Assembly: GCA_026545225.1 (NCBI GenBank)
Contig: CM048850.1
Coordinates: 4,650,001-4,714,000 of the forward strand
Reading direction: 5' to 3'
From: Cornus controversa
Taxonomy: Eukaryota; Streptophyta; Magnoliopsida; Cornales; Cornaceae
Length of the DNA stretch: 64,000 bases
The notes under the pieces were generated by a model. That model was not told where the DNA came from. It saw only the letters and a program-made list of their open reading frames with translations, and ran no database searches. This document shows, piece after piece, positions 14,888 through 59,767 of the stretch (positions are counted from its first letter, which is position 1; every line of letters starts with the position of its first letter). A program made the position numbers and the translations under genes.

Positions 14888-17540
14888 TGTAGAAACCGGA
14901 ACCAAAATTGACCGGTTTTCAAAAATTTTCATCATTTTCGCTATAAATGCGTTTCGAATGATGTTTTGGATGTTTCGAGAGTGGAAAACATGTTTGGAAA
15001 CATGTTATGAGGTTTTTGGAAGTTTTCGAAAAATTTGGAGAAGTTTGACTTTTTGGTCAAACCGGGGCCGGGATGCGACTTTAGTGGGCCCGGGGAATCC
15101 GAAAAATTTCCGGAAATATTTATTTTTGGATATGGACTAAACGAAATATTTAGAGTGTTAAGGAAGTGATTTCGAGTCCAACGGAGTTTTCGAGAATTAA
15201 TTCGGAGGTCGGGAAGGTACTTTAAGTGGCCGGGGGCAAAACGGTCATTTCGCGCCCCTAGGACTGGAACAAATATCCCAGGGAGATCTGAGATCTCATT
15301 TCTCACGGTTCTCTCTCTCTCTAAACATTTCCCTCTTCATCCCTCCACCTTCTCTCTACATTTCGGGTGCATTCGGCTTGGATTCGTGATTCGCCGAAGA
15401 AGGAAAGAGTGTAGAGGACGGCTAGGGCTTCGGTTTGAACCGAACAAACTTGTGTTTCGGCAAGGTGGAACCTGCTGGAAATTTTGATAAGTGCTTGGAA
15501 GGTCTTCAATCTTGAGGTAGGGGTGTTTCTTCTCTTCTAGTTGTCGATTCTAGGGTTTTGGGTGGTTCGGAGAGGTTTTCGGTTGAGTTCGTATGTGGGA
15601 GAGATGGGCAAGGGGCTGAATTTTTATATTTCCTCTTCCATTGTGATTATGCATGCTAGATAGATCCATCTTGATGAATATATGATGGGTGGGTTGAATA
15701 TGTGCAAAGTGTGCAAAATGAGAGCATGACTAGCTATGTTGTGTATTATATGCACATGTAGGTTATGTGTGTTTTGGGGTGCAATCATATGATTATATGT
15801 GGGTTGTGGGTGTGTATAAATGTTGAATGCATGCTAGGTTATTTTATAGCAAGTGTGTGCATTGTTGAAGCATGATCAAAATATGCTAGGTTGTGGTTTG
15901 TAGGCATATGAGAGTGATATGCATGCCTCATGACATATATGTGATCATGTGTTGTTTTGAATGTTAGAATGCATGCTAGGCTTGTTATAGCAATGATATG
16001 CATTGAAAAACATGATATATGAATGAGTGCATTCATACTTGGATTGTATGTTGTCGTGTGCATGAAAGCATTTTACATGCCATGTAGTGAGGGACATGTA
16101 GGTCGGTGTCGGGTCGGCACCTAGGAGGGGAGGGGCATTCCTACTGAGCCGCAGTGTTGCTCACCCCACTCCCCCAAACATTTTTTTTCAGGTAAGAAGC
16201 CGAGAATGGATAAAAAGAGCTTGCTTCCTTACTTGGAGCATTTTGGTGCATTTTGGGGATCTTTTGAGATATATGTATGGACTATGTTTTTGGCTATCCA
16301 TGCCGGCATGTGGCATGTGGATTATGTTGATTTATAGTTACATTCACGGTATATGTAACTTGTATATTCATTTGAATCCTTATGTGTATGGTTTCATGGA
16401 TTTTGTATGAATTTGGAGCTTAAATGGATGAATGTATCCTTTTTTTTCTTTTGTATCTTGAACTCTTGGATATGAAGGTTTTGAAGAGTGGATTTATATT
16501 GGAATCACGGTTGTAGGATTTCGATGTGTGAGTTAGGTTGTATGTATGAGTTGATGAATATGATCTTTGGAAAATGAGGATGGTTCATGCACTTGAATTT
16601 TATGTGCATTGAGAATTTAGGATGAGTTTTCTATGATTATACAAGATTTGAGATTCAAATGTGTAGGTTGATGTGTGAGTATGATATTATATCATTGGGG
16701 GATGATTTATATGTTTTATAAATGATCCAAGGTGGTTTGGTTGAGATTTGAGTTCAAATGGATCTTGTATAGGTGTTTTGGAGTTGCTGGGAAGTGCATT
16801 TCGATCAATCGAAATGTCCATTTCGATTGATCGAAACTCCCATTTCGATTGATCGAAATGGTTGCGAAATCTGAGTGTCTTTGAGGTCCAGAATGGGGTA
16901 ATTTCGATCAATCGAAGTCCCCATTTCGATTGATCGAAATATTGCAGGTCCAAGGTACCGAGAGGCTGTTTTCTTCGATTGATGGGGTCAAAATCTCGAT
17001 TAATCGAGATGGATTTCGATTGATCGAAATTACTATTCACAGCTTTTTTCAAAACTTCGTTTCGACGTAATTTCTTCGTTCTAGATCGGAATTGAGTGTG
17101 GTTTTTTTTGAACTTGAGTATTTTTGAATTCTCTATCCAATGGTGTAAGCCTCAGTTTCAGATTCCAAACATAAAAGGTTTTGAGGCTCGAAAGTGAGTG
17201 ATTCTCGAAAGAGTGGCCAAGTAAATTGCCACTAAGGTGTATGATTTGATGTAGGGCCCATGGGGATTGGTTGAGGAGTGGTTGTGTGCATTTATATGCA
17301 ACACTTAAGTTAAGCTTCCGCTGAAAATGAGTGTAATGAGGGTTCATTGGGTTTAAATGGACAGTTAACCTCCGGTCTTCCGAGAGTGGGGAAATCGGGG
17401 TGTTATGGCATGGTATTGGTAATAGATACTATTGCATGAGTGTGCTTGAGATAGTTTATGGGGTTGAGTGAATGGGTTCACACTCGGGATTCGGGGTCAG
17501 TTCGGGGAAGTCTCGGCGGTCCGGGTTCCGGGGCGTGACA
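14888..17540 (+). repeat. 5' LTR of the gag-only element
   Basis: 2653 bp, starting TGTAGAAACCGG and ending GGGGCGTGACA. It matches 22,011-24,684 almost base for base. It contains a cluster of TCGATYRATCGA palindromes (16,798-17,030) and a conserved block near 16,141-16,200 (ACTGAGCC, GCTCACCCC, TTTTCAG) that is shared with both chromovirus LTRs. Confidence 0.95.
16798..17030. promoter_or_regulatory. TCGATYRATCGA palindrome cluster (7 copies and a half copy)
   Basis: Copies of ATTTCGATTGATCGAAAT, or its reverse complement, start at 16,798, 16,820, 16,842, 16,901, 16,923 and 17,013. A variant ATCTCGATTAATCGAGAT is at 16,993 and a half copy near 16,973. It lies about three quarters of the way through the LTR. 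Function is unknown; the dyad suggests binding of a dimeric protein. Confidence 0.7.
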
Positions 17541-17543
17541 ACA

Positions 17544-17555
17544 TGGTATCAGAGC
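17544..17555 (+). other. primer binding site (tRNA-iMet type)
   Basis: TGGTATCAGAGC starts four bases after the 5' LTR. It is complementary to the 3' end of initiator tRNA-Met, the usual primer of this lineage. Confidence 0.9.
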
Positions 17556-17928
17556 TCTAGGTCAGAATACCTAGGGACGACGGGAAAGGCTAAACTACAT
17601 TTTGAAGTTTGAAAGGGGTTTGATGATCTGAACATTAGGTTCGAAAACCCAAAGATGATGGGTGAGGTCCATTCACGTGTTGGATTGGAACTCTGTGTTG
17701 ACATTGGGCTTGTCAAAGCCATAAACTTGATTACCTTAGACAAAGAGTGAGAATTTGAATGTGTGTTTATTTGAGGTCGAGGGTTTTGACTTGAGATTTT
17801 GTATTAGAAATCCAACTATTGCAATGACATGTGAAATATGATTTGATGCTTACATGTTTAGAATGAGCATATAGTTTTGGTTGATTTGGCTTGGGATTTA
17901 AGTGTCTTCTTTTTGTCTAAATAGCAAG

Positions 17929-19077
17929 ATGCCACCACGAAGAGTCCGTGAAAGGGCAGATACAGTCCCTATGAATGGAGAGCAAGTTGTGCATGATATG
18001 GTTGCGAGCATACGACAAATTGTTAGGGAAACACAAGAGGAGACTCAGGCTCGACATAGAGCAGCTCCTAGTAGGATGATGTTGACATTGGGGCACGTTA
18101 GGAAGCATAATCCGCCATCGTACACAGGAGGGTCTGACCCTATGGTGGCTGAGAATTGGATAGATGAGATGGTTGAACTCCTTACCGTACTTGAGGTAGA
18201 GGAGAACTTAAAGGTGAAAGTGGCCACCCATTACCTTAAGGGTGAGGCCAAACGTTGGTGGAAGTCTATTGGGAACCGCCATGACATTGAGATGATGGAT
18301 TGGAATACATTTGAAACATTATTCTTCGAGAAGTATTTTCCAGTAACAGTGAAGGATAGTTTGAGGCGAGAGTTCTATGAATTGCTTCAAGGGGATATGA
18401 CAGTTATGGAGTACGAGACCAGATTTACCTCTTTGGCTCGATTTGCAAAAGAGATGATTCCAACGGAAGAGCTGAAGGTCAAACAGTTCATAAGAGGTCT
18501 CCGACCCTATTTGCGAGATAAGGTTGGAATTCTGGGATTAACAAGCTATACTGCAGTGGTGGAAAGAGCACTAATAGCAGAAGAGCTTGATAATGACAAT
18601 CATCGGATACAAGATGAGAAAAGGCATGATTCTTCTAAGAGTCAGCCAAAGAAGAAACAGAAAGGTGGTTCTTATCGATCTAAAGGATCAATGGGACAGC
18701 GGATGACATATTCAGTACCTACGACTTCCATGTCTATACAGTCGGTCGGGTCAAGGAGAGTGTGTCATCATTGTCAGCAGCCGGGTCACTATAGGTCTGA
18801 GTGCCCCAGCATACATTTGGCACCAGCAGATGGACAAATTTGTTACCTCTGTCATCAGACTGGTCACTTGAAAGTGAATTGTCCTGAAGGACAGGGTGCA
18901 GGGGGTAGGACAGAGTCTCTTAACCGCACCGAACAGTTCTTGGCGAGTCAGATTGACTCGGTGGCAATGTCGCCACCCCCGCCAATGCAGTCTGCTCAGG
19001 TTTTGCGAGCAAGTATGAGGAACCTTCCTAGTGGTTCAGGACAGCAGTCCAGGTATCAAAGGACTCGCCCACAGTGA
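17929..19077 (+). CDS. gag: gag polyprotein (retrotransposon gag plus two CCHC zinc knuckles)
   Basis: Intact ORF of about 382 codons from the ATG at 17,929, which begins MPPRRVRERAD, the usual start of this family. An upstream in-frame ATG at 17,902 is less likely. The capsid-like retrotransposon gag domain is in the first half (GEAKRWWKSIGNRHDIEMMD, FFEKYFPVTVKDSLRREFYE, ARFAKEMIPTEELKVKQFIR). A basic, lysine-rich linker follows, then two zinc knuckles near residues 278-320 (CHHCQQPGHYRSEC and CYLCHQTGHLKVNC), which bind genomic RNA during particle assembly. The protein would form the cytoplasmic virus-like particle. No protease motif follows. An intact gag in an element with near-identical LTRs suggests selection or very recent amplification. 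Confidence 0.92.
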   Translation: MPPRRVRERADTVPMNGEQVVHDMVASIRQIVRETQEETQARHRAAPSRMMLTLGHVRKHNPPSYTGGSDPMVAENWIDEMVELLTVLEVEENLKVKVATHYLKGEAKRWWKSIGNRHDIEMMDWNTFETLFFEKYFPVTVKDSLRREFYELLQGDMTVMEYETRFTSLARFAKEMIPTEELKVKQFIRGLRPYLRDKVGILGLTSYTAVVERALIAEELDNDNHRIQDEKRHDSSKSQPKKKQKGGSYRSKGSMGQRMTYSVPTTSMSIQSVGSRRVCHHCQQPGHYRSECPSIHLAPADGQICYLCHQTGHLKVNCPEGQGAGGRTESLNRTEQFLASQIDSVAMSPPPPMQSAQVLRASMRNLPSGSGQQSRYQRTRPQ

Positions 19078-20500: not shown

Positions 20501-20514
20501 GGTGCTGTCATTGA

Positions 20515-22010: not shown

Positions 22011-24684
22011 TGTAGAAACCGGAACCAAAATTGACCGGTTTTCAAAAATTTTCATCATTTTCGCTATAAATGCGTTTCGAATGATGTTTTGGATGTTTCG
22101 AGAGTGGAAAACATGTTTGGAAACATGTTATGAGGTTTTTGGAAGTTTTCGAAAAATTTGGAGAAGTTTGACTTTTTGGTCAAACCGGGGCCGGGATGCG
22201 ACTTTAGTGGGCCCGGGGAATCCGAAAAATTTCCGGAAATATTTATTTTTGGATATGGACTAAACGAAATATTTAGAGTGTTAAGGAAGTGATTTCGAGT
22301 CCAACGGAGTTTTCGAGAATTAATTCGGAGGTCGGGAAGGTACTTTAAGTGGCCGGGGGCAAAACGGTCATTTCGCGCCCCTAGGACTGGAACAAATATC
22401 CCAGGGAGATCTGAGATCTCATTTCTCACGGTTCTCTCTCTCTCTAAACATTTCCCTCTTCATCCCTCCACCTTCTCTCTACATTTCGGGTGCATTCGGC
22501 TTGGATTCGTGATTCGCCGAAGAAGGAAAGAGTGTAGAGGACGGCTAGGGCTTCGGTTTGAACCGAACAAACTTGTGTTTCGGCAAGGTGGAACCTGCTG
22601 GAAATTTTGATAAGTGCTTGGAAGGTCTTCAATCTTGAGGTAGGGGTGTTTCTTCTCTTCTAGTTGTCGATTCTAGGGTTTTGGGTGGTTCGGAGAGGTT
22701 TTCGGTTGAGTTCGTATGTGGGAGAGATGGGCAAGGGGCTGAATTTTTATATTTCCTCTTCCATTGTGATTATGCATGCTAGATAGATCCATCTTGATGA
22801 ATATATGATGGGTGGGTTGAATATGTGCAAAGTGTGCAAAATGAGAGCATGACTAGCTATGTTGTGTATTATATGCACATGTAGGTTATGTGTGTTTTGG
22901 GGTGCAATCATATGATTATATGTGGGTTGTGGGTGTGTATAAATGTTGAATGCATGCTAGGTTATTTTATAGCAAGTGTGTGCATTGTTGAAGCATGATC
23001 AAAATATGCTAGGTTGTGGTTTGTAGGCATATGAGAGTGATATGCATGCCTCATGACATATATGTGACCATGTGTTGTTTTGAATGTTAGAATGCATGCT
23101 AGGCTTGTTATAGCAATGATATGCATTGAAAAACATGATATATGAATGAGTGCATTCATACTTGGATTGTATGTTGTCGTGTGCATGAAAGCATTTTACA
23201 TGCCATGTAGTGAGGGACATGTAGGTCGGTGTCGGGTCGGCACCTAGGAGGGGAGGGGCATTCCTACTGAGCCGCAGTGTTGCTCACCCCGCTCCCCCAA
23301 ACATTTTTTTTCAGGTAAGAAGCCGAGAATGGATAAAAAGAGCTTGCTTCCTTACTTGGAGCATTTTGGTGCATTTTGGGGATCTTTTGAGATATATGTA
23401 TGGACTATGTTTTTGGCTATCCATGCCGGCATGTGGCATGTGGATTATGTTGATTTATAGTTACATTCACGGTATATGTAACTTGTATATTCATTTGAAT
23501 CCTTATGTGTATGGTTTCATGGATTTTGTATGAATTTGGAGCTTAAATGGATGAATGTATCCTTTTTTTTCTTTTGTATCTTGAACTCTTGGATATGAAG
23601 GTTTTGAAGAGTGGATTTATATTGGAATCACGGTTGTAGGATTTCGATGTGTGAGTTAGGTTGTATGTATGAGTTGATGAATATGATCTTTGGAAAATGA
23701 GGATGGTTCATGCACTTGAATTTTATGTGCATTGAGAATTTAGGATGAGTTTTCTATGATTATACAAGATTTGAGATTCAAATGTGTAGGTTGATGTGTG
23801 AGTATGATATTATATCATTGGGGGATGATTTATATGTTTTATAAATGATCCAAGGTGGTTTGGTTGAGATTTGAGTTCAAATGGATCTTGTATAGGTGTT
23901 TTGGAGTTGCTGGGAAGTGCATTTCGATCAATCGAAATGTCCATTTCGATTGATCGAAACTCCCATTTCGATTGATCGAAATGGTTGCGAAATCTGAGTG
24001 TCTTTGAGGTCCAGAATGGGGTAATTTCGATCAATCGAAGTCCCCATTTCGATTGATCGAAATATTGCAGGTCCAAGGTACCGAGAGGCTGTTTTCTTCG
24101 ATTGATGGGGTCAAAATCTCGATTAATCGAGATGGATTTCGATTGATCGAAATCCAATTTCGATTGATCGAAATTACTATTCACAGCTTTTTCCAAAACT
24201 TCGTTTCGACGTAATTTTTTCGTTCTAGATCGGAATTGAGTGTGGTTTTTTTTGAACTTGAGTATTTTTGAATTCTCTATCCAATGGTGTAAGCCTCAGT
24301 TTCAGATTCCAAACATAAAAGGTTTTGAGGCTCGAAAGTGAGTGATTCTCGAAAGAGTGGCCAAGTAAATTGCCACTAAGGTGTATGATTTGATGTAGGG
24401 CCCATGGGGATTGGTTGAGGAGTGGTTGTGTGCATTTATATGCAACACTTAAGTTAAGCTTCCGCTGAAAATGAGTGTAATGAGGGTTCATTGGGTTTAA
24501 ATGGACAGTTAACCTCCGGTCTTCCGAGAGTGGGGAAATCGGGGTGTTATGGCATGGTATTGGTAATAGATACTATTGCATGAGTGTGCTTGAGATAGTT
24601 TATGGGGTTGAGTGAATGGGTTCACACTCGGGATTCGGGGTCAGTTCGGGGAAGTCTCGGCGGTCCGGGTTCCGGGGCGTGACA
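22011..24684 (+). repeat. 3' LTR of the gag-only element
   Basis: 2674 bp, with the same ends as the 5' LTR. It is 21 bp longer because of one extra palindrome unit near 24,152-24,174. About four other single-base differences were seen. Confidence 0.95.
23921..24174. promoter_or_regulatory. TCGATYRATCGA palindrome cluster (8 copies and a half copy)
   Basis: Same order and spacing as 16,798-17,030, with one additional 21-bp unit just before the end. Confidence 0.7.
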
Positions 24685-24714
24685 GACAAGTTCAAGAAGA
24701 GTGTATAGAGCAGC

Positions 24715-27003: not shown

Positions 27004-28400
27004 TGATGTGGTCGGAACTAAATTATATTGTAAGCTTAATTTTTCCCTTTTTATCAAAATATAATTTAACCACTCGCAAGAGCACGAATCTTTGTAGATA
27101 AGGTTCTATATGGAGGGTATCGATCCCACGAGGACTAGTCGTTAATTGTCATAAAGAAAGATTAATTCTACTTTAATTCTAAAAACAGGTTTTTGGTTTT
27201 GTGTTTAAAACTATTGCGTAAATGAAATGACGATAAAATTAAAGAGTAAAGTTGGGAGAGAGAACTAGGGTTGGTTTCCACCACTAGCCATTCACATGTT
27301 CATAAGTGTAGCAAGCATGGGATTCATTAATTAAATGTCTAACAATGTCATTAGGCTTGTGACCTCAATGACATATCAAAAGATCAATGTGTGTGCTAAC
27401 CTATCATAATCCATCTTCAACAAGCATAGCTCTTCAACCTAACTAATTACCTAATTACTCTACTCTCTACGTAAACACTACATGCATCCAAACTACCTTG
27501 TCTTGGCATGGTCTATACAAACTAGCATCACACATTCATTTAAACACCATTATCTAGCCATCATTTGCACTTCTTGTGGAATATGCAAATGTTGTGCATT
27601 CAAGTGACAAAACCTACTCTAAGACAAGAATAAATTCCAAATCAAATGAATATATATAAGAAATGTATTTGTGTACATAATCACTAGGCTAAATAATCAA
27701 CATTTAATTACAAATCCCCAAGAGCTACAAAGATGAACAAGTTTACATGGCTAGGGGTTGAAACCAACACCCTAGTAGAAGAGTTAGTTGCTCATGGTTG
27801 CCTTGCACCCTTCCATTGATGAAGAGAATGAAGCTTCTTGGTCTGGTTCAGCTTTTCTCTTCCTCTCCCGAAGGTCTCTCCTTTAGTATCCTGATGTGTA
27901 TATTGAGAGATATGAGATATGTGGCTTTTGGTGCTTTTTGTATGCTTTTTGGCTCCTTTGGGCCCACCATATATATATATATATCATTATATATATCTCT
28001 TGTATCAAGAAGGCCCCCAAAAGTCTTGTTCAAGTCAGACAATCCCCCTAAGTCGTGCAAAAAGGGGGATTTTGTTGCAAGTGGGAGAGCAGGTGAGCAA
28101 GTGTCCAAGTGGGCTCTGCAGCATTTCGATTGATCGAAATTGCCTTTCGATTGATCGAGATTTCGATCAATCGAAATCTCGATTGATCGAAATCCACATC
28201 TCGATTGATCGAGATGCCTTGGCAACATTTTCTGATTTCATCTCTTGACTGCAGAAAGCTTCCAACTTTGCTCCATTTACTCCAATACCTGCAATACATC
28301 AAAAACACAAAAATACCGTAAACATATCTCGGTAAACGCAAAAACGGAACTAACATATGCAATAAAGAGGGTTCAAATGCATGGAATTGAACACTTATCA
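27004..28400 (-). repeat. 3' LTR of the Athila element
   Basis: 1397 bp. On the plus strand it runs from TGATGTGGTCGG to CACTTATCA. It contains a (TA)n/TATA-like run near 27,971-28,000, with the palindrome cluster 28,123-28,215 lying upstream of it in the element's orientation. Confidence 0.95.
28123..28215. promoter_or_regulatory. TCGATYRATCGA palindrome cluster (5 copies)
   Basis: Five closely packed, partly overlapping copies. In the element's direction they lie 185-280 bp into the LTR, upstream of the TATA-like run, as expected for U3 promoter elements. Confidence 0.7.
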
Positions 28401-28414
28401 CACCCCCAAACTTA
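28401..28414 (-). other. polypurine tract of the Athila element
   Basis: On the minus strand TAAGTTTGGGGGTG directly precedes the 3' LTR (TGATAAGTG). It is the plus-strand primer for reverse transcription. Confidence 0.85.
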
Positions 28415-30209: not shown

Positions 30210-30803
30210 CTACTCGAGGGCGGGTGGTGGTGGTGGGGGCTCGGTGGGAGCAGAAGTGGAGGTGGAGGCTCGACCTGCGAACAGGAACTGCAGATCCTGC
30301 CGGAAGGCTCGGAACTCATCTAAGATCGCTCTCTGGCCCTGCACCAGAGAAGAAATGTCCGTCCGAATACCCGCCAGCTGACTCTGCGTCACCTGGATGT
30401 GCTCGTCAAAACCCTGCTGGAGCCGCTCTACGTCAGCCGCCAGGCAGGAATAGCCCATCGCTAAGATATCATGCCGCTCTGCAGCGACATCCATCTCCTC
30501 CTCCTCCATCTCCTCATCCTCTGTCTCAGCCCCTGCTGGCTCTCCCTCATCCATCTCCACCGGGGCATCCATATCTACATCGTCTGATGGATCACCCTGA
30601 TGGTCCTGTCGCTCTAGGTGTCGCCTCACCCGATCCCACTGAGTAGATGTGAAGCGGGTGGGCGGTGCCAAGTGAATGTCAGTTCGACTGACCGGAATAC
30701 TGGCACTGCTGAGAAAAACGACGATCAGGAAAGGAAAGGGAAGCCGCCAACTCGCTGCTCTCCTCTTCCTCTTGTTGACGAGGCCATCCCAAACTTTGTG
30801 CAT
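30210..30803 (-). CDS. C-terminal part of the Athila second gene (acidic, coiled-coil-like)
   Basis: A GC-rich ORF of 197 codons directly follows 30,810-31,433 on the minus strand in another frame, so the two were probably one protein joined by a frameshift or splice. It has a short hydrophobic stretch near its start (LPFPFLIVVFLSSA), an acidic block (DEGEPAGAETEDEEMEEEEM), a probable coiled coil (VERLQQGFDEHIQVTQSQLA) and a proline-rich end. The hydrophobic stretch could be read as a membrane segment, as claimed for some Athila env-like ORFs. It lies close to the junction where the frame is uncertain, so I do not rely on it. Function unknown. Confidence 0.55.
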   Translation of the reverse strand: MHKVWDGLVNKRKRRAASWRLPFPFLIVVFLSSASIPVSRTDIHLAPPTRFTSTQWDRVRRHLERQDHQGDPSDDVDMDAPVEMDEGEPAGAETEDEEMEEEEMDVAAERHDILAMGYSCLAADVERLQQGFDEHIQVTQSQLAGIRTDISSLVQGQRAILDEFRAFRQDLQFLFAGRASTSTSAPTEPPPPPPALE

Positions 30804-30809
30804 CTGTCC

Positions 30810-31433
30810 CTAGATAAGCGATGGGACAGAAAACCAAGCGCCCGTATGGAAAGCATAGAGGCAATGGAGGAGGTCACCCCTGCGCTCGGCCACGTGCTGC
30901 AACGGACACGCGTTCTTGAGGAGAACGGTGTCCAGGAACCAATATCTGCTCGGGCACATCGACTTGGACGTGCAGTTATGGTTGGGCGTGGTAAACGCCC
31001 CGCCACACATGTCCATCATTATCGAGAAGAGCGTGGTGTCTGCTGGGAGCGCTGCACTATAGAGTGGCTGACCATCCGGGCCAACCATGTCCGGCGGCTG
31101 CTGGTGAGGGATGCCGAGCATATGAGCAATCCGACTCGGCGTAATCGTGATCGTGACAGTGGCCACGGTAGTCTCGAGTGTATCTGGCGCTGTGCAGGAG
31201 TACGTCATATGCTCGTAAAAGACCTGCACTAGGCGCTCGTGTGCCACATCGGTGGGAGGCACACATAGCCGGTCGAGGCGACGCCTCCTGAGCTCGGCAA
31301 CCGTCCACTCGGTGTCAGGACGCCTCTCGAACTCCGCTAAGTCGAAAACCTGCTCCGGGTAGAACTTCCGGGACCGGAAGGCTCGCCCGGGCACGTCACG
31401 AACAGCACCGGCGGCGTTTTTCACTCTCGCCAT
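30810..31433 (-). CDS. 'putative plant transposon protein' (Transposase_32-like) ORF in the env position of Athila
   Basis: The ORF runs from 31,463 to a stop at 30,810. I favour the ATG at 31,433 (MARVKNAAGAVRD) because an acceptor-like AG at about 31,453 lies after the first ATG. It shows the family pattern: SRKFYPEQVFDLAEFERRPD, a conserved R-L-V-x-x-F-Y (HERLVQVFYEHM), ITITPSRIAHMLGIP, and a C-terminal core with RYWFLDTVLLKNACPLQH. A diverged relative is at 8322-9515. The region is clearly richer in GC than the rest of the element. A TATA box, 5' exon and intron appear to precede it, so it may be made from its own transcript. The biochemical role of the family is not established. The frame is lost at 30,810-30,830. 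Confidence 0.65.
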   Translation of the reverse strand: MARVKNAAGAVRDVPGRAFRSRKFYPEQVFDLAEFERRPDTEWTVAELRRRRLDRLCVPPTDVAHERLVQVFYEHMTYSCTAPDTLETTVATVTITITPSRIAHMLGIPHQQPPDMVGPDGQPLYSAALPADTTLFSIMMDMCGGAFTTPNHNCTSKSMCPSRYWFLDTVLLKNACPLQHVAERRGDLLHCLYAFHTGAWFSVPSLI

Positions 31434-31452
31434 CGCCTCGGAACAGTCTGCA

Positions 31453-32066
31453 CTGGATTCCAAAAGGTACGTAAATAAAAGATGAATAAGAAGAAAGTTA
31501 AACTACTACTAGACTAAAAGAATAAAAATAAAAATGTAGTCTTAGTCCAAGGTACTGACAAAAATGCAAAAAAAAATTGCACTCGAAGAGGCAATGTGAA
31601 CGGGTGCAGCCGAAACGAAGGTATCGCGGTTACACACCGTACACTAAGCGTTTGAAACGAAGAAAATGCCAAATCCCACTCCTGCTTGAATTCCTACCCC
31701 CCGAAACCCACAAAAACTCGATTCAGACATCGCAATCGCAACCATCCACCCCAACATGATCTAACTATGTTTATTCCGCTATAAAACTATCAAAAATGGC
31801 GAGAGAATAAACAAAAAGTAGCCATGCATCACTTACCTCGTGAGGAAGAAGATGAACGGCTCAACCGAAGAAAACTCCACGCGCAGCCGCGAAGAGAAGA
31901 TCGCGCAGATGCTAGCGGCGGATCGGACTGAGTCGGATGGCGGCGGATGATCGGGAATGGATGATCGAGTGCTCGGGAGTGCTTGGAGAAGGCTTGGATC
32001 GCACGGAGGAAGAGAAGAAGTCGGATGGTCTTTTAAAATGGGAGGGAAGCCCAACGGTTTAAATAG
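31453..32066 (-). promoter_or_regulatory. putative internal promoter, 5' exon and intron of the Athila second gene
   Basis: On the minus strand CTATTTAAAC, a good TATA box, lies at 32,057-32,066, about 30 bp downstream of the nearest palindrome copy (32,097). A second TATA-like TTTTAAAAG lies near 32,036. Downstream is a CT-rich leader, then a strong donor GAG|GTAAGT at 31,836 and a pyrimidine-rich stretch ending in a CCAG acceptor near 31,453, 20 bp before the favoured ATG. This is inference from sequence only. Confidence 0.5.
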
Positions 32067-32096
32067 ATTTTCGGCTCACGTGCAGGCTCCGCGTGC

Positions 32097-32479
32097 ATTT
32101 CGATTGATCGAAATATGCATTTCGATCAATCAAGATTTCGATTGATCGAAATCTTGCTTCGATCAATCGAAACCAGCTTCGATGGATTGAGATTGTCTTT
32201 TCGCTCAATCAAAAATTCCTTCCCTGAATCACATTTTTACTTCGATCAATCGAACATTTAATTGATGCAATCGAACTTTTATTTCGATCAATCGAAATCC
32301 CATTTCGATCAATCGAAAGTTTCGATCGATCGAAGACCTATCGAAGTGCAATCGAAGAATACCACCTCTCGGGACTTTGGACTTGGCAAATCTCTGCAAT
32401 TTTTCGATCAATCGAAACCAAAATTTCGATCAATCGAAATTTTCGATTGATCGAAATCTTGGTTTCGATCAATCAAAAT
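32097..32479. promoter_or_regulatory. TCGATYRATCGA palindrome cluster inside Athila (about 10 exact and 4 degenerate copies)
   Basis: The densest run of the motif in the window. It lies between the end of integrase (32,649) and the putative TATA box of the second gene (32,060). Variants include TCGATCGATCGA near 32,321. The decayed copies suggest it is older than the LTR clusters. Confidence 0.7.
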
Positions 32480-32648: not shown

Positions 32649-35600
32649 TCACGAGTCAAAATACACGGGATCCGTCAAAGTGACGATATCCACGTATTCG
32701 GTGGTGACTTGGTCATCCACGCACACTTTTAAGCGCTGCCCGTTTACTTTGAATATCGAACCGTCTTTCAAGTCCTTCAATTCCACCGCTCCGTGGGGAG
32801 CGATGGAATTAACCAAAAATGGACCATCCCAACGGGAGCGAAGTTTTCCGGGAAACAAATGGAGGCGTGAGTTGTACAACCAAACTTTTTGGCCCGGCGA
32901 AAATGTTTTGACTCGAATATTACGATCATGAAAGGCTTTGGACCTTGCCTTATAGATTTTTGCATTCTCATAAGCGTCATGTCGCAATTCTTCCAATTCA
33001 TTTAATTGAAGCTTCCGATTAGAACTGGCCTTTTTCATGTCAAAATTGAAGGTCTTGGTGGCCCACATAGCTTTATGCTCCAATTCAACCGGAAGATGGC
33101 ACGCCTTGCCATAAACTAACCGATAAGGTGACATTCCAATGGGAGTTTTATATGCGGTTCGGTATGCCTATAATGCGTCGTTTAGTCGCAATGACCAATC
33201 CTTCCGGTCAGGCCGAACAGTTTTCTGAAGAATGTTCTTAATCTCCCTATTGGATACTTCTACTTGGCCACTAGTTTGAGGATGGTAGGGGGTGGCTACT
33301 TTGTGCGTGACGGAGTATTTGAGAAGCAAGGTTCGAAGGAACCGATTACAGAAATGCTTACCTCCATCACTGATGATGGCCCGAGGCGTACCAAACCGGC
33401 TAAAAATGTTAGCTTGTATGAATTTAACCACGACTGCGTGATCGTTGGTTTTGGTAGCAACGGCCTCTATCCACTTAGATACGTAGTCCACCGCCACAAG
33501 TATGTACTCATGACCAGTAGAGGGTGGAAATGGTCCCATGAAGTCAATGCCCCACACATCAAATATTTCAATGATAAGAATAGGGTTAAGAGGCATCATG
33601 TCCTTCCGAGACATCGCGCCAAGGCGCTGACATCGCTCACAAGAGCGGCAGAATGAATATGCATCCCGATGAAGTGTCGGCCAGAAAAATCCGCATTGAA
33701 GAATTTTTGCTGCGGTTTTCTTAGCACTAAAGTGTCCCCCACAAGCGAGTGTATGACAAAATTTAAGAATGCTTTGGAATTCACTGTTGGGTACACACTT
33801 ACGAATTATTTGATCGGGGCAGTATTTGAACAATTGAGGATCGTCCCAATAATATGATCGTGATTGGGAGAGAAAACGATCCTTCTCTTGTTTGGTCTAA
33901 GAAGATGGTATTTTACCGGTTGCCAAATAATTAACCACATCCGCATACCAAGGGATACTCTCTTGAGAGATGACAAAGAGTTGTTCATCCGGGAAGGATT
34001 CACAAACTGGAATGGAATTATGAAGGGATTCAACAAGAATTCTAGAAAGGTGGTCAGCTACCACATTTTCAGTTCCCTTTTTGTCTCTAATCTCAAAATT
34101 GAACTCTTGCAACAAGAGTATCCATCGGATCAACCTAGGCTTGGTGTCCTTTTTCGCCAAAAGATGTCGGAGGGCAGCATGGTCCGAATAGACAATGACC
34201 TTTGAACCTAATAAATAAGCTCGAAATTTGTCTAATGCAAATACTACCGCAAGCAATTCCTTTTCCGTTGTGGTATAATTGATTTGAGCCTCGGAAAGGG
34301 TTTTACTTGCGTAGTAGATGACATGTGGCAGTTTGTCTACTCGTTGCCCTAAGACAGCACCCATGGCATAGTCGGATGCATCACACATAATCTCAAATGG
34401 GAGAGCCCAATTTGGAGGGATTAGAATTGGAGCGGTTGTAAGCATGGTGCGGAGTTTTTCAAAAGCGTCAAGGCACGCTTCATCAAAGGTAAAGCAAGAC
34501 TCTTTTTCAAGAAGGCGACACAAAGGCCGAGAGATCTTGCTAAAGTCTTTGATGAAACGGCGATAAAAGCCCGCATGCCCAAGGAATGAATGAATCTCTC
34601 TCACCGTTGATGGTGGAGGAAGTTTAGAAATGAGTTCAACCTTGGCTTTATCAACCTCTATTCCTCGCTTAGACACAATGTGCCCTAGGACAATACCCTC
34701 TTGAACCATAAAGTGACTCTTTTCCCAACTAAGAATTAGGTTGGTTTCTTGACATCGTTTGAGAACACAAGCTAGATTTTGGAGGCATGATTCATATGAA
34801 GGCCCAAAAACGGAAAAATCATCCATGAACACTTCTAAGAATTTTTCCACCATGTCCGAGAAGATAGACATCATACACCGTTGAAAAGTTGCCGGTGCAT
34901 TGCACAACCCAAAGGGCATGCGTCTATAAGCAAATGTGCCGAAGGGACATGTAAAGGTGGTTTTCTCTTGGTCCCTCGGGTCTATAGCAACCTGATTATA
35001 GCCGGAATATCCATCCAAAAAGCAATAAAAGCTTTGCCCGGCCAATCTCTCCAATATTTGATCAATGAATGGGAGGGGGAAGTGATCTTTTCGAGTGGCT
35101 GAATTTAATTTCCTATAATCAATGCACACTCTCCATCCTGTGGTGGTGCGTTGGGGAACTAATTCACCCTTATCATTAGGTTGCACCGTAATACCAGACT
35201 TTTTTGGAACCACTTGAGTGGGACTAACCCACTTGCTATCAGAGATGGGGTATATGATCCCCGCATCTAGTAACTTCACCACCTCCTTCATTACAACGTC
35301 CTTCATGTTTGGATTCAATCGACGTTGTGCCTCCCTTGAGGTCTTTGCATCCTCTTCCAAGTGTATGCGATGCATACAAACAGAAGGGTCTATTCCCTTA
35401 AGATCTACCACACTCCATCCTATTGCTTCTTTGTGCTCTTTGAGCACCTTTATGAGTTCCAATTCTTGATCATTTGTGAGATTGGAAGCAATAATGACTG
35501 GAAGGGTCTCATTTGCGCCCAAGAAAACATACTTGAGTGTAGCTGGAAGAGGCTTGAGCTCAAGTTGTGGTGGGAAAATTAAAGAAGGAGTTTGGGGAGT

Positions 35601-38282
35601 TTTGGACAAAGGGGGCAAGGGTTCTCTCAGAACTCTCCACTTAGGCAAATCCATGACAGTATTAACATCGAGCATGGAATTGACTTCACATATGGATTGC
35701 TCAATGTCAAAATCGTCATAGTTAAAATGATTTAGGCATGCCTCTAAAGGGTCCGTGGAAAGAATAGAAGGAAGTGCTTCTTGAACAAGGTCGTCCACAA
35801 CATCGACACAAAAGCACTCACTTTCATCGTCGGGTGTGTGGTGGGAAGCATTGAAAATGTTCAAGCGGACTTTCATATTCCCAAAAGAGATGTCCATCAC
35901 TCCAGTACGGCAATTAACGCAAGCGTTTGCCGTGGCCAAGAATGGACGACCTAGAATGATAGGAATATGATGATTCGGATTTTGGACCGGTTCCGTGTCA
36001 AGGACTATGAAGTCCACCGGAAAATAGAATTTGTCCACTTGAATGATGACATCCTCAATGATGCCACGTGGTTGCTTCACCGAACGGTCGGCAAGTTGCA
36101 ACACAACCGTGGTATGCTTGAGTTCCCCCAAACCTAGTTATTGGTAAACTGAGAATGGAAGCAAATTGACACTAGCCCCTAGGTCAAGAAGTGCTTTTTC
36201 AAAAGATTGATTTCCGATGGTGCACGAAATGGTCGGAGCACCCGGATCCTTGAATTTAGGAGGGGCTTGGTGTTGGAAAATGGAGCTTATGTGCTCAGTT
36301 AAGAGGACTTTCTTAGGAACATTATTCCTAGATTTGCGCTTTTGAGTGCATAAGTCCTTCAAGAATTTCGCATAAGAGGGAATTTGTCGAATAGCATCAA
36401 GGAGAGGGAGATTGATCTTTACTTGTTTGAAGATCTCCATCATGTCTTGGATTTTCTCTCCTTGCTTCCCGAAATGAGAAGGTTCCTTCAATCGTTGAGG
36501 GAAAGGAACCGGAGGTTCATAAGAGGTGTCAAGATTTGGAATCGATGATGACACAACTTCACTTGCCTTTCCTTTTGGATTTGAAGGGGTATTTTGCAAA
36601 TTTGGATTTAACGGAAACAATTTTGGATTTAATTGGGATTCTTTTGGATTTTTAGGTTGCTCTTGAAATTCCTTTCTCTCTTCCTCCCCTACCTTGGAGT
36701 TAATGATTTTACCACTCCTCAAGGTTGTGATTGATTGAACTTGCTCTGGAGGAGCATTACAAGTTGAAGATGATGGATCTTCAATCATATGCACACCCTT
36801 GGGATTCGCCACCGGTTGACTCGGCAACTTACCTTCCTCCCTTCTATTTAAGGCATTAGCTAGTTGCCCGATTTGAGCTTCTAACCTAGCCATAGATTGA
36901 GCATTAGCCTCAAGCTTAGAGATTGATTGAGAGTGAGTTTGCAATAAGCTGGTGTTGGCCTCAAGATTGCTTATCACTCGCTCTTCAAAGCTTTGGCTTC
37001 TCGGAGGAGGTGGTGGTTGTTGGTAATTAGATCTTTGATTGTAAGGTTGAGGGTTTGGCCTATAATGAGGCTGTTGAGATTGGGAATTAAAAGAATTTTG
37101 CCCTTGGAAAGAGGGACTTGATTCTTGATTCTTCCATGAAAAAGCTGGATGATTCTTGTAACCAGGATTGTACGTGTTCGAATATGGATCATTCATTTGT
37201 TTAGCGTACAAGGCATTCGCTTGCTCTTGAGCATAATCGGGAGATTGCCCGGCAATAGGACAATCTCGCATAAAATGCGAAGTGCTATAGCAAAACGAAC
37301 ACCCCTCCTGATTTTGGACAGATTGGTTAGAAATAGGCAGCCCATTTTTCATGATTAAATCCATTTTTCGAGACAAGGCTTCTACTTGCATGGCTACCTC
37401 ATCTACCCGTGAAATCTCATGCACTCCTCTACAAGGTTGGGTGGCCTTCCCTTTCCTAGTGGAGGAGCGTTGAGCTGAATTGTTGCTTAGGGTTTGAAAG
37501 AGTTTCCATGCCTCATCGGGGCTTTTCAAAAGGTACCCACCCCCACACGCGGAGTCTATCATTTGTCTATGTTGCTCACTCACCCCATCATAAAAACTTT
37601 GCACTAGCTGCCATTTTGGGACAGCATGATGCGGACAAGATTTTAAGAGATCTTTTAACCTCTCCCACGTCTCATGGAATTGTTCTTGGTCAATTTGGGT
37701 GAATCCGGTGATTGCTCGCCGAATATCACTTGTCTTACCCATTGGGAAGTATTTTTTTAAGAACTCTATTTGCATTTCTGCCCAAGAATGGATTGAGTTG
37801 GGTTCTAGGGAATTGAACCAACTTCTAGCCTTATCTTTTAGGGAAAATGGAAACATACGTAACTTTAGATCATCCTCCGTAAAGTGTGGTACACGAATGG
37901 TGGAACACACGGAAAAGAAGTAATCTAAGTGCCGGTATGGATCCTCATTAGGAAGACCGTGAAAGCTGTTAAGAAGGTTGAGGGTGGAGGACTTTATTTC
38001 AAATTGATTTGCCGCTACATCCGGAAATTGAATACACGAAGGTACTTCAAATGTAGTCGGAAGGTAAAAGTCCATAAGCAATTCTCCTTGAGGAGGTGGT
38101 GGTGGAGGTGGTTGTTCATGATTAAAAGGAGGTAGACCGGGAGGTTGTCTCTCATTTGGTTCCATATTTTCAGTTCTAGGCAAAATAGGGTCCCTAGAGG
38201 TTCCTCTACGTTGTCTAAGTGTTCGTTCAAGTTCACTATTACAAGGAAGCAAAGGAAGTGACAATGACCGTCTACCTAGCAT
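32649..38282 (-). pseudogene. gag-pol: Athila gag-pol polyprotein, one frame with three nonsense codons
   Basis: One reading frame of 1878 codons on the minus strand, with no frameshift. Gag (from 38,282) has the Athila-type capsid (FHGLPNEDPYRHLDYF, FPFSLKDKARSWFNSL) and a single zinc knuckle (CSFCYSTSHFMRDC). The protease site is DLGASVN near 36,170. RT follows with PFGLCNAPATFQ and FMDDFSVFG, then RNase H (MCDASDYAMGAVLG, TTEKELLAVVFA, YSDHAALRHL). Integrase has an HHCC finger (HTLACGGHF ... CRSCERC) and DDE residues in [15 protein letters not shown] and [16 protein letters not shown]. In-frame stops fall at 36,138-36,140 (TAA, just after protease), 33,897-33,899 (TAG, RNase H/integrase linker) and 33,168-33,170 (TAG, integrase C-terminal region). 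They should abolish full-length pol unless read through. The third replaces a position where the family usually has tryptophan. Confidence 0.93.
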
Positions 38283-38544
38283 GCATTAACAATTGAACAG
38301 CACCTCTACACACAAAGTAACAATAATATATACAAAAGAATGTGAATTATTCAAACCACCAATTTTTGAAGTTATACTCACAAAGGGTTCCAATTTGAAT
38401 TCTTCTAGATGCCCGCAATGTGGTATACCTAAAATCAAGAAGTTTGAGATATAAGAGCAAGATATATACAAAAAGAATGAAAGAATTTCTAGCCTAAGAA
38501 TTAAACCAGATTTAATCTTCCAATGGCGACAATTAAACCGTAGT

Positions 38545-38567: not shown

Positions 38568-39985
38568 TGATGTGGTCGGAATTAAATTATATTGTAAGCT
38601 TAATTTTTCCCTTTTTATCAAAATATAATTTAACCACTCGCAAGAGCACGAATCTTTGTAGATAAGGTTCTATATAGAGGGTATCGATCCCACGAGGACT
38701 AGTCGTTAATTGTCATAAAGAAAGATTAATTCTACTTTAATTCTAAAAACAGGTTTTTGGTTTTGTGTTTAAAACTATTGCGTAAATGAAATGACGATAA
38801 AATTAAAGAGTAAAGTTGGGAGAGAGAACTAGGGTTGGTTTCCACCACTAGCCATTCACATGTTCATAAGTGTAGCAAGCATGGGATTCATTAATTAAAT
38901 GCCTAACAATGTCATTAGGCTTGTGACCTCAATGACATATCAAAAGATCAATGTGTGTGCTAACCTATCATAATCCATCTTCAACAAGCATAGCTCTTCA
39001 ACCTAACTAATTACCTAATTACTCTACTCTCTACGTAAACACTACATGCATCCAAACTACCTTGTCTTGGCATGGTCTATACAAACTAGCATCATACATT
39101 CATTTAAACACCATTATCTAGCCATCATTTGCACTTCTTGTGGAATATGCAAATGTTGTGCATTCAAGTGACAAAACCTACTCTAAGACAAGAATAAATT
39201 CCAAATCAAATGAATATATATAAGAAATGTATTTGTGTACATAATCACTAGGCTAAATAATCAACATTTAATTACAAATCCCCAAGAGCTACAAAGATGA
39301 ACAAGTTTACATGGCTAGGGGTTGAAACCAACACCCTAGTAGAAGAGTTAGTTGCTCATGGTTGCCTTGCACCCTTCCATTGATGAAGAGAATGAAGCTT
39401 CTTGGTCTGGTTCAGCTTTTCTCTTCCTCTCCCGAAGGTCTCTCCTTTAGTATCCTGATGTGTATATTGAGAGATATGAGATATGTGGCTTTTGGTGCTT
39501 TTTGTATGCTTTTTGGCTCCTTTGGGCCCACCATATATATATATATATCATTATATATATCTCTTGTATCAAGAAGGCCCCCAAAAGTCTTGTTCAAGTC
39601 AGACAATCCCCCTAAGTCGTGCAAAAAGGGGGATTTTGTTGCAAGTGGGAGAGCAGGTGAGCAAGTGGCCAAGTGGGCTCTGCAGCATTTCGATTGATCG
39701 AAATTGCCTTTCGATTGATCGAGATTTCGATCAATCGAAATGAGATTTCGATCAATCGAAATCTCGATTGATCGAAATCCACATCTCGATTGATCGAGAT
39801 GCCTTGGCAACATTTTCTGATTTCATCTCTTGACTGCAGAAAGCTTCCAACTTTGCTCCATTTACTCCAATACCTGCAATACATCAAAAACACAAAAATA
39901 CCGTAACCATATCTCGGTAAACGCAAAAACGGAACTAACATATGCAATAAAGAGGGTTCAAATGCATGGAATTGAACACTTATCA
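38568..39985 (-). repeat. 5' LTR of the Athila element
   Basis: 1418 bp, 21 bp longer than the 3' LTR because of one additional palindrome unit near 39,742. About six other base differences seen. Confidence 0.95.
39687..39800. promoter_or_regulatory. TCGATYRATCGA palindrome cluster (6 copies)
   Basis: Same arrangement as 28,123-28,215 plus one 21-bp unit. It lies about 140 bp upstream of the TATA-like run at 39,535-39,565 in the element's orientation. Confidence 0.7.
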
Positions 39986-39990
39986 CATAA

Positions 39991-43493: not shown

Positions 43494-43872
43494 TGTCACG
43501 CCCCGGTTTCCGACACCCGGTTAGGAGCGAGGGAAACGGGGGTGAATCCGTAATCTCACCTCAAGTTCCCACACCTTAATCTCATTATAATCTATTCTAT
43601 TGCAGAAGAATTCTATATGCACACCTTTCAAGTGGCATTAGATCATCAATGGCTCTTGCAAATGATTTTCACCTTTGGTTCCATACGTATAAACCACTAA
43701 GTTTTGGACCTCAAATTTTTACACAGGTGGAATTTGATTATGAAACCTACACCATTGGATAGATCTTTCAAAAATACTCAATTTCAAAAAATACCACGCT
43801 CAATTCCGATATAAAACGAAGAAATTACATCGAAACGAAGTTTGGACAATTTTTGAACCTTGCTGTGAATTC

Positions 43873-44075
43873 ATCTCGATTAATCGAGATTTTGACCCCA
43901 TCAATCGAAGAAAACACCCTCTCGGTATCTTGGACCTGCATTATTTTGATCAATCGAGATTGGGGCTTCGATTAATCGAAATAAAGCTTAAAAATTCATA
44001 AAATCTCGCAACCATTTCGATCAATCGAGATGGGCATCTCGATTAATCGAAATGGGCATCTCGATTAATCGAAAT
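43873..44075. promoter_or_regulatory. TCGATYRATCGA palindrome cluster (5 exact and 2 degenerate copies)
   Basis: Includes the fully symmetric form ATCTCGATTAATCGAGAT at 43,873. Its relative position in the LTR matches the gag-only element. Confidence 0.7.
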
Positions 44076-45727: not shown

Positions 45728-47105
45728 TGATGTGGTTGGACTTCAATTATATTGTAAGCTTATTTTTGCCCCTTTTATCAAAATATAATTTAACCACTCG
45801 CAAGAGCACGAATCTTTGTAGATACGGTTCTATATAGAGGGTATCGATCCCACGAGGACTAGTCGTAATTATCTTAAAGAAAGATTAATTCCACTTTAAT
45901 CCTAAAAACAAGGTTTTGAGTTTTCGTTTATAAAACTATTGCATGAATGTAAAAACAATAAATTTAAAAGAGTAAAAGTTGGAAGAGAGAGCTAGGGGTG
46001 GTGTCCACCACTAGCCATTCACATGTTTATAAATGTAGCAAGCTTGGGATTTATAAATTAAATGTCTAACAATGGCATTAGGCTTGTGACCTTAATGACA
46101 TATCAAAAGATTAATGTGTGTGCAAACCTATCATAATCCATCTTTAACAAGCATAGTTCTTCCACCTAACTAACTACTCTACTCTCTAAGTGAATCTAAA
46201 ACTAAATGCATCCAAACTACCTTATCTTGGCATGGTTTATACAAGCAAACACCACACATTCATTTAAACACCATTATCTAGCCATCATTTGCACTTCTTG
46301 TGGAATATGCAAATGTTGTGCATTCACAGGAAAGAATCTACTCTAAGACAAGAATAAACTCAACATCAAATGAATATATATAAGAGATGTATTAGTGTAC
46401 ATGGTCACTAGGCTAAATAATCAACATTTAAGAACAAATCCCAAAATACTACAACAAGAACAAGTTTACATGGCTAGGTGTTTCAACCACACCCTAGTAG
46501 AAGAGTTAGTTGCTCATGGTTGCCTTGCACTCTTCCATTGATGGAGAAGATGAAGCTTCTTGGTCTGGTTCAGCTCCTCTTTCTCCTCTCCCGAAGGTCT
46601 CTCCTTGTGTATTCTGATGTGTATATGAGAGATATATGAGAAATGTGGCTTCCTTGTGCTTTATGGCTACTTTTTCCAACCTTGGGGCCCACCATATATA
46701 TATATATATATATCAATATATATATCCATTATATCAAGAAGGTCCCCAAGGGTCTTGTTCAAGTCAGACAATCCCCCTAAGTTGTGCAAAAAGGGGGATT
46801 TTGTTGCAAGTGGGAGAGCAGGTGAGCAAGTGGGCAAGTGGCTTATGCAGAATCTCGATCAATCGAGATTGGATCTCGATTGATCGAGACTTCGATCAAT
46901 TGAGATCTCGATTGATCGAGATGCCTTGGCTGCAATTTCTGATTTTTCTCTTCAACTGCAAATAGCCTCAAACTTTGCTCTTTCTACTACATGACCTACA
47001 ATACATCAAAACACAAAAATACCGTAAACATATCTCGGTAAACGTAGAAACGGAACAACATATGCAATAAAGAGGGTTCAAATGCATAGAATTGAACACT
47101 TATCA
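45728..47105 (-). mobile_element. Athila solo LTR
   Basis: 1378 bp, with the same ends as the Athila LTRs (TGATGTGG...CACTTATCA) and clear but imperfect similarity along its length. It is flanked by the 5-bp target duplication ATCGG (45,723-45,727 and 47,106-47,110). No internal sequence remains, so the two LTRs of a former full element recombined. It is nested in the chromovirus LTR and is therefore younger than that insertion. It looks older than the full Athila copy, judging by divergence. Confidence 0.93.
46852..46922. promoter_or_regulatory. TCGATYRATCGA palindrome cluster (3 exact and 1 degenerate copies)
   Basis: Same location as in the full Athila LTRs. Copies here are of the ATCTCGATYRATCGAGAT type. 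Confidence 0.65.
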
Positions 47106-50185: not shown

Positions 50186-50190
50186 CAGGA

Positions 50191-52783: not shown

Positions 52784-52836
<53 letters not shown>

Positions 52837-53760: not shown

Positions 53761-53829
53761 GTGGGAGAGCAAGCTGACCAATAAGATATATTTTATTGTC
53801 ATTTTATTTAAATAAAACCCAAATAACAT

Positions 53830-59011: not shown

Positions 59012-59521
59012 TGTCACGCCCCCAAACCCGGACTGCTGGGACTCCCTTGGACCAACCCCGAATTCCGAGTGTGAACCCGTTCACCTAACCCCATGAACAA
59101 TCTCAATTACATTCAATGCATTAGTATCAAGGTTTAATACCATGCTATAACGCCCCGATTTCCAACTCTCAAAGAACCAGAGGTTAAACCGTCCATTTAG
59201 CCCAACAGGCCCTCATTACCCTCATTCACCACGAAAGCTTAACTCAATTCTTGCATATGAATGCACCCAAATCCACCTTAACTAATCCCCATGGGCCCTA
59301 CATCAAATCACACACCTTAGTGACCATTTACTTGTCCACACTTTTAAGAATCACTCACTTTCGAGCCTCAAAACATTCTTTGTTTAGAATCTGAAACTAA
59401 AGCTTACACCATTGGATATAGAATTCAAAAATACTCAAGTTAAAAAAAAACCACACTCAATTCTGATCTAGAACAAATAAATTATGTCGAAATGAAGTTT
59501 TGGAAAAAGCTGTGAATAGTA

Positions 59522-59767
59522 ATTTCGATTAATCGAGATGGGCATCTCGATTGATCGAGATTAAATCTCGATTAATCGAAATGCTTGCGAGAGTTTCACC
59601 CTTTTGGTACCCCAGACCTACAATATCTCGATTGATCGAGATGGGGGTTTCGATTGATCGAAATTCCTCCTATTTGGACTCTAAAAATCACCATAAATCA
59701 TCACCCCTTCGATCAATCGAAATGGGGGTTTCGATTGATTGAAATAGGCATCTCGATTGATCGAAAT
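59522..59767. promoter_or_regulatory. TCGATYRATCGA palindrome cluster (7 exact and 1 degenerate copies)
   Basis: Mix of ATTTCGAT, ATCTCGAT and symmetric TTAA-centred forms. Relative position in the LTR is as in the other chromovirus-type LTRs. Confidence 0.7.

Follow-up and report, generated by a model that had tools for sequence, protein, structure and literature searches.

Arrays of short palindromes are known from the Sireviruses, Ty1/copia retrotransposons in which motifs called RMs occur in many copies in the long terminal repeat (LTR) upstream of the TATA box, with more copies upstream of the ENV-like gene; according to the accessible part of the describing paper, a CGG-CCG core is found in all RMs but Tnd-1 (ACAATCGATTGT) (PMC2829016). 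Here we describe a comparable arrangement in a 64,000-nucleotide stretch of the genome of Cornus controversa (hereafter the window, located on contig C6 of an assembly with ten large contigs), where the palindrome TCGATYRATCGA forms arrays in the LTRs of Athila and chromovirus-type retrotransposons and, in addition, inside an Athila element upstream of its third open reading frame (ORF). We propose that these arrays are probably promoter-proximal candidate sites at which a sequence-specific DNA-binding factor with two specificities, or a few factors of this kind, would bind.

The likeness to the Sirevirus RMs, as the accessible part of that paper presents them, lies in the palindromic arrays standing in the same two places in Athila, the TATA boxes here being judged by sequence alone. 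Unlike the RMs, the arrays are carried by Ty3 elements (Athila and chromovirus) and not by Ty1/copia elements, and their core is TCGATYRATCGA or TCGATYRTRCGA with no CGG-CCG, which Tnd-1 also lacks. Neither sharing across lineages nor a two-state switch is described for RMs in the same part of the paper, whereas two Ty3 lineages and two site states are involved here. Palindromes in maize Sirevirus LTRs, together with small interfering RNAs, were reportedly linked to a host epigenetic response by Bousios and colleagues in 2016, reportedly with a sequence and a lineage that differ from the present ones.

A second point of comparison is offered by the VANC21 motifs of VANDAL21 DNA transposons, which form dense arrays in the non-coding parts of one group of transposable elements (TEs), are rare elsewhere, are gained and changed rapidly through repeat formation, and are read by a sequence-specific protein (PMC5735166, PMC10398659; accessible parts). 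The present arrays resemble these targets in that a short motif is densely repeated in TE regions without coding function. However, the VANC21 site is non-palindromic, has a single orientation, lies in a DNA transposon and has a known protein, whereas the motif described here is common to unrelated lineages and its binder is a candidate only; the same excerpts describe neither sharing between retrotransposon lineages nor switching between two states. As regards the internal array, elements of the Grande/TRP28 type have an extra ORF after pol with tandem repeats nearby, regulatory and DNA-binding roles have been proposed for TRP28 (PMC11963269, PMC7264820), and env-like genes are described as driven by the 5' LTR promoter (PMC7264820), all as given in the sections available. 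The Athila element shares with them the extra ORF and the nearby tandem repeats, but in those parts of the literature the ORFs are antisense and belong to another lineage, whereas the Athila ORF runs in sense and has a putative leader intron. For Grande, a promoter belonging to the extra ORF itself has reportedly been found. In Arabidopsis, finally, Athila families have exchanged parts, and expressed sequence tags have been assigned to the env region; that exchange stays within Athila, whereas here a promoter module is shared with chromoviruses, and the accessible part of the report describes no palindrome (PMC2410132).

Distribution and geometry of the palindrome

In line with an earlier note on this DNA, which had reported about 50 copies in eight clusters, 51 exact copies of TCGATYRATCGA were counted in the window, against 0.02 expected (mean of 100 shuffles; largest value 1). 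The clusters hold 7, 8, 5, 10, 6, 5, 3 and 7 exact sites in window order, and a scan of the whole window gave none outside them; when the 18-mer was allowed up to 3 mismatches, 56 matches were found against 0.49 expected. Across the whole 771.7-Mb genome TCGATYRATCGA occurs 48,782 times and the reversed pattern 507 times, the latter being an imperfect control since it contains no CpG. Within the window, the half-sites TCGAT and ATCGA are separated by a gap of 2 in 51 cases, and all other gaps from 0 to 11 together account for 1. The centre of the site is pyrimidine-purine (YR) in 51/51 window sites, and YR centres make up 92% of the 52,962 genomic occurrences of TCGATNNATCGA. In a tally of the window sites plus the first 100 genome places, 78 of the 120 intervals of ≤130 bp between neighbouring sites measured 16, 20, 21 or 22 bp. 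A contig search gave no viral contig with two adjacent motifs, and a search with the motif letters found no paper on this motif among open-licence PMC papers, where searches for LTR palindromes or modules common to several elements led no further.

A reading of the eight clusters as independent occurrences was rejected, as self-comparison reduces them to three contexts in two lineages. The first context is a chromovirus-type LTR. The LTRs of a gag-only element, 14888..17543 (+ strand) and its partner 22011-24688 (99.0% identical), align at 81-84% with 43748-44505 and 59012-59812 in the chromovirus LTRs, and the two kinds of LTR, previously described as not alignable, thus form one family. Motif scanning placed arrays of state AA (TCGATYRATCGA) in the gag-only element at 16798..17030 (+; 7 exact sites, 5' LTR) and 23921..24174 (+; 8 exact sites, 3' LTR), and in the chromovirus LTRs at 43873..44075 (−; 5 exact sites) and 59522..59767 (−; 7 exact sites). 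A TATA-like box recognised by eye in the gag-only LTR (ATTTATATGC, 17290..17299, +) lies ~260 bp downstream of the array. The second context is a single Athila LTR family, to which the AA-type clusters at 28.1, 39.7 and 46.9 kb belong: 5 exact sites at 28123..28215 in LTR 27004-28402, 6 at 39687..39800 in LTR 38568-39987, and 3 at 46852..46922 in LTR 45728-47105, itself within a chromovirus LTR (all − strand). Here a TATA-like run, again judged by eye, is found ~130 bp downstream of the array (39551..39560, −). The third context is the AA-type array at 32097..32479 (−; 10 exact sites), which had been assigned to an LTR but sits in the Athila interior, flanked by the ORF for integrase and the third ORF (motif scan, Pfam).

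This placement bears on the proposal that the motif is a signal for replication, packaging or integration in the element RNA or DNA. Such a signal would fit the presence of the arrays in two lineages and in element parts that end up in RNA. However, in each of the three contexts the array precedes a TATA-like box, and the arrays are not beside the primer binding site (PBS), the polypurine tract or the LTR ends, and the second Athila array, far inside the element, heads another gene. A role of this kind, part of which the earlier note had entertained, is hence very improbable. A coding role of the arrays was likewise considered and rejected: ORFs across the LTR arrays merely translate the repeats and no homologue was found, none of the 35 candidates having scored in a protein search with the LTR pseudo-ORF.

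The proteins of the window elements contain Ty3-type domains (Pfam). In the Athila element, ORFs for gag, reverse transcriptase/RNase H and the integrase core occupy 33168..38285 (−; ORF list, Pfam), and this Ty3-type gag-pol is combined with an extra ORF after integrase and with TGGCGCCGTTGC after the LTR. The latter we take to be an Athila-type PBS. The gag ORF of the gag-only element (17902..19077, +) matches Retrotrans_gag and a zinc knuckle (Pfam), and the chromovirus match to the chromodomain expected after integrase (Chromo, PF00385) is weak (E 0.0033, 17.7 bits, below the cut-off of 25.1), with an SH3_Tf2-1 match alongside. Both lineage names, Athila and chromovirus, are assumed here in part from features typical of these lineages. 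Other tandem repeats accompany these elements. An array of ~371-bp period (53952-59011; 12 copies, with sub-repeats of 20-21 bp) adjoins the chromovirus LTR at 59.0 kb; this LTR, at 59-62 kb, contains a 49-bp tandem repeat (60545-60825), because of which it is longer than the gag-only LTR; and repeats of ~85 and ~130 bp lie 3' of gag inside the gag-only element (20506-21240).

Elsewhere in the genome, 21 motif loci were classified. Of these, 20 come from the 22 clusters at the head of the list for contig C1, and L009 was the only hit when ten 10-kb stretches were chosen arbitrarily; the 21 loci are thus not a random sample. They include 12 Athila LTRs, 5 Athila internal arrays and 1 LTR of the same chromovirus family as in the window. 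L009 and L036 represent a further LTR family, with a chromovirus pol (68%) adjoining L009, and L035 was placed solely through a 25-bp match resembling an LTR end and PBS. The earlier statement that no copy lies outside retroelements holds for the window (51/51 sites); in the genome, clear retroelement matches, in more than one lineage, were found at 20 of these 21 non-random loci. No motif site in a host gene was seen among the sampled loci, genes not having been searched systematically.

Two site states and their change in place

Besides AA, two further states of the site were counted, AB (TCGATYRTRCGA) and BB (TCGYAYRTRCGA). The genome contains 3,068 and 2,996 AB sites on its two strands (6,064 in total) against 119 and 109 for the control, whereas BB, with 165 sites, falls below its control (861). 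Among 53,163 forward matches to TCGATYRNNCGA, 48,782 are AA and 3,068 AB, and the other 13 dinucleotides together account for 1,313 (control 1,842).

The AB state was followed in 24 fetched loci (19 in L041-L059 and 5 in L065-L069), which comprise 4 chromovirus LTRs of group A, 5 Athila LTRs, 3 Athila internal arrays and 12 members of other LTR groups. The sampled arrays are nearly pure in one state. Of the exact sites in the AB loci, 61 are AB, 4 are AA, one of which lacks a YR centre, 4 are of other kinds and none is BB, and the AA:AB:BB ratio of 4:61:0 compares with 18:32:14 under independent halves. An exact AA (YR) site is absent from 21 of the 24 AB loci, and an exact AB site from all 17 AA loci (L019-L035). 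One Athila element is AB throughout its 15 kb, in both LTRs (L065, L066) and in the internal array (L054). The centre of oriented AB sites is TG in 50 of 64 cases. More LTR-like groups, with older, decayed AB arrays and of uncertain element type, are represented by L053 (C1:5610200-5610700), L051 and L056.

Alignment of chromovirus LTRs (8 sites in 4 AB LTRs, 4 cells being gapped) showed 28 of 28 gap-free site cells to be nearer AB than AA, 12 of them exactly AB, and the half that changes varied from site to site. The array regions are ~80% identical between the closest AA LTR (c59) and the AB chromovirus LTRs (77-80%). Similarly, all 14 gap-free cells (of 18) in Athila LTRs were nearer AB, at an overall identity of 65%. 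The LTR stretches flanking an AB chromovirus pol (L043/L044) are 90% identical, as compared with 99% in the AA pairs of the gag-only element and Athila, which suggests, from this single AB pair, that AB elements may be older than AA elements. With regard to conservation, the core is kept better than the rest in pairs of chromovirus LTRs (e.g. 68/72 vs 566/679, and 77/84 vs 557/702), core CpGs being kept in 13/14 cases vs 9/22 outside, and it is also better kept in most comparisons of Athila LTRs. Among 177 AA-type sites, each of which was required to have at least one intact outer CpG, a rule favouring the outer positions, 158 retain the left outer CpG and 157 the right one, and 8 have CpG at the centre.

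This pattern could be accounted for without any function, if an old repeat had spread through recombination and tandem expansion, with the two states representing two clonal lineages. Common descent of much of the module follows from the shared spacer described below, and the set of centres (CG, TG, CA and TA) is the expected remnant of CpG deamination. Yet the 28/28 cells follow the same two-base change amid ~20% divergence of the flanks, and the outer CpGs of the site persist where CpGs outside it decay, although the choice of sites favoured the outer ones. Gene conversion could mimic some of this, but it would also make the flanks and the orientation uniform, and orientation differs from site to site. 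We therefore regard neutral spread as quite unlikely.

The arrays could instead be docking sites, or sources of hairpin-forming RNA, for host silencing. As RNA they do fold strongly, two AA arrays giving z values of −8.3 and −5.4 and two AB arrays −3.6 and −6.4; oppositely oriented AB sites can still pair together, and in other systems repeated U3 sites are targeted by RNA-directed methylation (VANDAL; PMC10398659, accessible part). However, a target recognised by the host should disappear, yet the sites are kept and change jointly. In addition, AB alters one half without a matching change in the other, single-site hairpins not being preserved (BB 165), and the CA centre present in 71 of the 177 AA sites does not pair within the site. 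A role as silencing target appears unlikely from this evidence. A hairpin or cruciform formed by a single site was rejected, as AB breaks it and BB is not above control.

Several observations weigh against a factor with two specificities. Mixed arrays occur at three of the 24 AB loci (L045, L052 and L069) and at L036, and with ≤2 mismatches the AB loci contain 146 AB sites, 13 AA and 4 ties, and the AA loci 137 AA, 7 AB and 2 ties; moreover, the loci were chosen by motif state and come from one end of one contig. The genome-wide BB count of 165 is close to the 186 expected from independent halves, and consequently the case against independence rests on the purity of the sampled arrays. The Athila internal arrays have 17 gap-free cells (of 30), of which 12 were nearer AB and 1 nearer AA, with 4 ties, and between the Athila reference L001 and a46 the core is kept in 27/36 positions vs 1160/1307 for the rest. 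The RNA folding (z from −8.3 to −3.6) also belongs here. In combination, the fixed half-site spacing, the promoter position and the coordinated change make a sequence-specific factor with two specificities the simplest account. Such a factor would read a rigidly spaced pair of half-sites, in arrays that precede a TATA-like box in both the Athila and the chromovirus-type LTR as well as in the putative internal Athila promoter of the third ORF; AA and AB would correspond to its two specificities, and each element family would keep its arrays in one state.

A module in common with the Athila interior

The spacer word CTCGGKAYYTTGGACYTG of the Athila internal array (32368..32385, +) recurs in the chromovirus-type LTR arrays at 16945-16962, 24068-24085 and 43921-43938, giving 4 window matches vs 0.21 expected. 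With the motif masked, the LTR arrays g5 and c43 have a ~31-bp spacer in common with the Athila internal arrays, and 11 of the 12 pairs beat all 100 shuffles, the exception being c43-L025 (equalled by 3 of 100). When six LTR groups were compared with nine Athila internal arrays, z values of 12.9, 6.6, 17.7, 9.0, 5.4 and 4.4 were obtained, each above all 60 shuffles; these tests involve small groups of 1 to 9 members, of which D, E and F are loosely tied to elements, F and D having weak matches to pol or gag and E having none. The LTR groups are less alike mutually (z 0.1 for D-A, 1.1 for E-A, 0.4 for F-A, 3.2 for C-A and 3.2 for D-C, but 10.3 for E-C). The Athila LTR array gave z 0.9 with the Athila internal arrays, and with the motif masked none of its 24 pairs with the remaining arrays beat all 100 shuffles; groups A and E showed a small excess of similarity when compared with the Athila LTR (z 2.9 and 3.2, above all 60 shuffles). 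The likeness to the internal arrays is also weak for c59 and L031 (2 of 12 pairs beating all 100 shuffles), which counts against a shared module.

The shared non-palindromic spacer, seen with the motif masked, points to a promoter module that is centred on the Athila internal promoter, is common to chromovirus-type LTRs and was passed between lineages, as shown for this one route. For the chromovirus-type LTRs and the internal array of Athila, convergence alone was rejected, the shared spacer showing transfer or descent. The earlier note had judged descent from a common LTR unlikely and had offered convergence or transfer instead; Athila and chromovirus LTRs indeed share the motif and little else, and transfer is borne out by the one route. 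Its own reservation, that the clusters might be parts of one older repeat, applies in part, because the chromovirus-type LTR arrays and the Athila internal array share the spacer. Most simply, the chromovirus-type LTRs would have come to share the module with the Athila internal promoter by recombination between elements.

The third ORF and the candidate factor

Read in the sense of the element, the order after the internal array is CACGTG, TATTTAAA, a pyrimidine-rich stretch, a putative leader intron and the ATG of the third ORF. The CACGTG (G-box; 32077..32082, −), between the array and the TATA-like box, is present in 5 of 6 copies; the TATTTAAA box (32058..32065, −) is exact in 5 of 6, with TATTTGAA in the sixth; and both ends of the predicted intron (GTAAGT ... 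GCAG, 31448..31836, −) are kept in 5/5 AA-type copies. This order is suggestive of a promoter inside Athila from which the third ORF would be expressed with a spliced leader. In the window copy the ORF is interrupted between its halves, intact copies being present elsewhere. The first half, from the ATG (30810..31433, −), has a weak match to Transposase_32 (24.3 bits, below the Pfam cut-off of 45), and the second, in the same frame after the stop (30210..30809, −), appears by eye to be acidic, then coiled-coil-like and proline-rich. Values of dN/dS among AA-type copies were 0.05, 0.12, 0.14 and 0.21 (simple Nei-Gojobori script; the copy giving 0.21 has a stop), and on these ratios the third ORF is under constraint. 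The third ORFs of the AB-type Athila copies L062 and L061 are 60-67% identical to the AA type, the 67% copy having two stops, and no match was found at the AB locus L063. A Pfam search of the third ORF revealed no recognised DNA-binding domain, a search of PDB by sequence gave 0 matches, and a structure model from two sequences was unusable (mean pLDDT 36.7). Elsewhere in the window, a second weak Transposase_32 match lies at 8868-9536, distant from the Athila element, and + strand ORFs at 703-2261 contain a MULE transposase domain.

As to the factor itself, the earlier note had suggested a dimeric host transcription factor. The dimeric part agrees with the fixed half-site spacing and the two-state switch; between a host protein and the product of the third ORF the chances are about even. 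In the host version, both lineages would exploit one family of transcription factors, and AA and AB would reflect two paralogues, or a homodimer and a heterodimer. The use of the same two states in both lineages and in several LTR families is consistent with this. Furthermore, 6 of the 16 Arabidopsis first-intron enhancer hexamers in Table 2 of PMC8157754 occur as words within the motif (hypergeometric 3e-6 for AT-rich hexamers with CpG, although these overlapping words are not independent of one another). However, for those words the authors found no DAP-seq match, as stated in the accessible part of their paper, and words in a first intron come after the start site, whereas the LTR arrays lie upstream of TATA-like boxes. 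The sampled motif loci, moreover, are in retroelements, no host-gene site having been seen in a sample that was not a systematic test, and a host factor alone leaves unexplained why the hub of the module is the Athila internal promoter. This version is a possible one, although it falls short of being probable.

Alternatively, the third ORF could encode a DNA-binding regulator, a trans-activator or VANC-like anti-silencer, that recognises the palindromes and would drive its own gene through the internal array and the element through the LTR array. Chromovirus and gag-only elements would then have acquired the arrays and depend on this regulator, AA and AB being the sites of two diverged versions of the protein in a trans-regulatory system shared across lineages. 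The hub position of the internal module, the gene-like anatomy, the low dN/dS and the 60-67% identity between AA and AB copies are in agreement with such a regulator; the lack of a DNA-binding domain among the domains found and the useless structure model weigh against it, and we put it forward as a tentative, rather doubtful proposal. That a protein binds the arrays, that it activates and does not silence, and that transcription starts internally are inferred, as are the direction in which the module was transferred and the identity of the factor.

If one factor reads the same site in several lineages, and if the sites of a family change together, the control of these elements would not be private to each family. 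The regulator, whether host or element-encoded, would then be a resource, or a point of weakness, that these lineages have in common. A natural specificity switch would be represented by the AA/AB pair, with aligned alleles two bases apart per site, and this would provide a handle on the factor as well as a test of whether retrotransposons carry VANC-like self-regulators, while the putative internal Athila gene would offer a direct test of the role of the old 'envelope-like' ORF.

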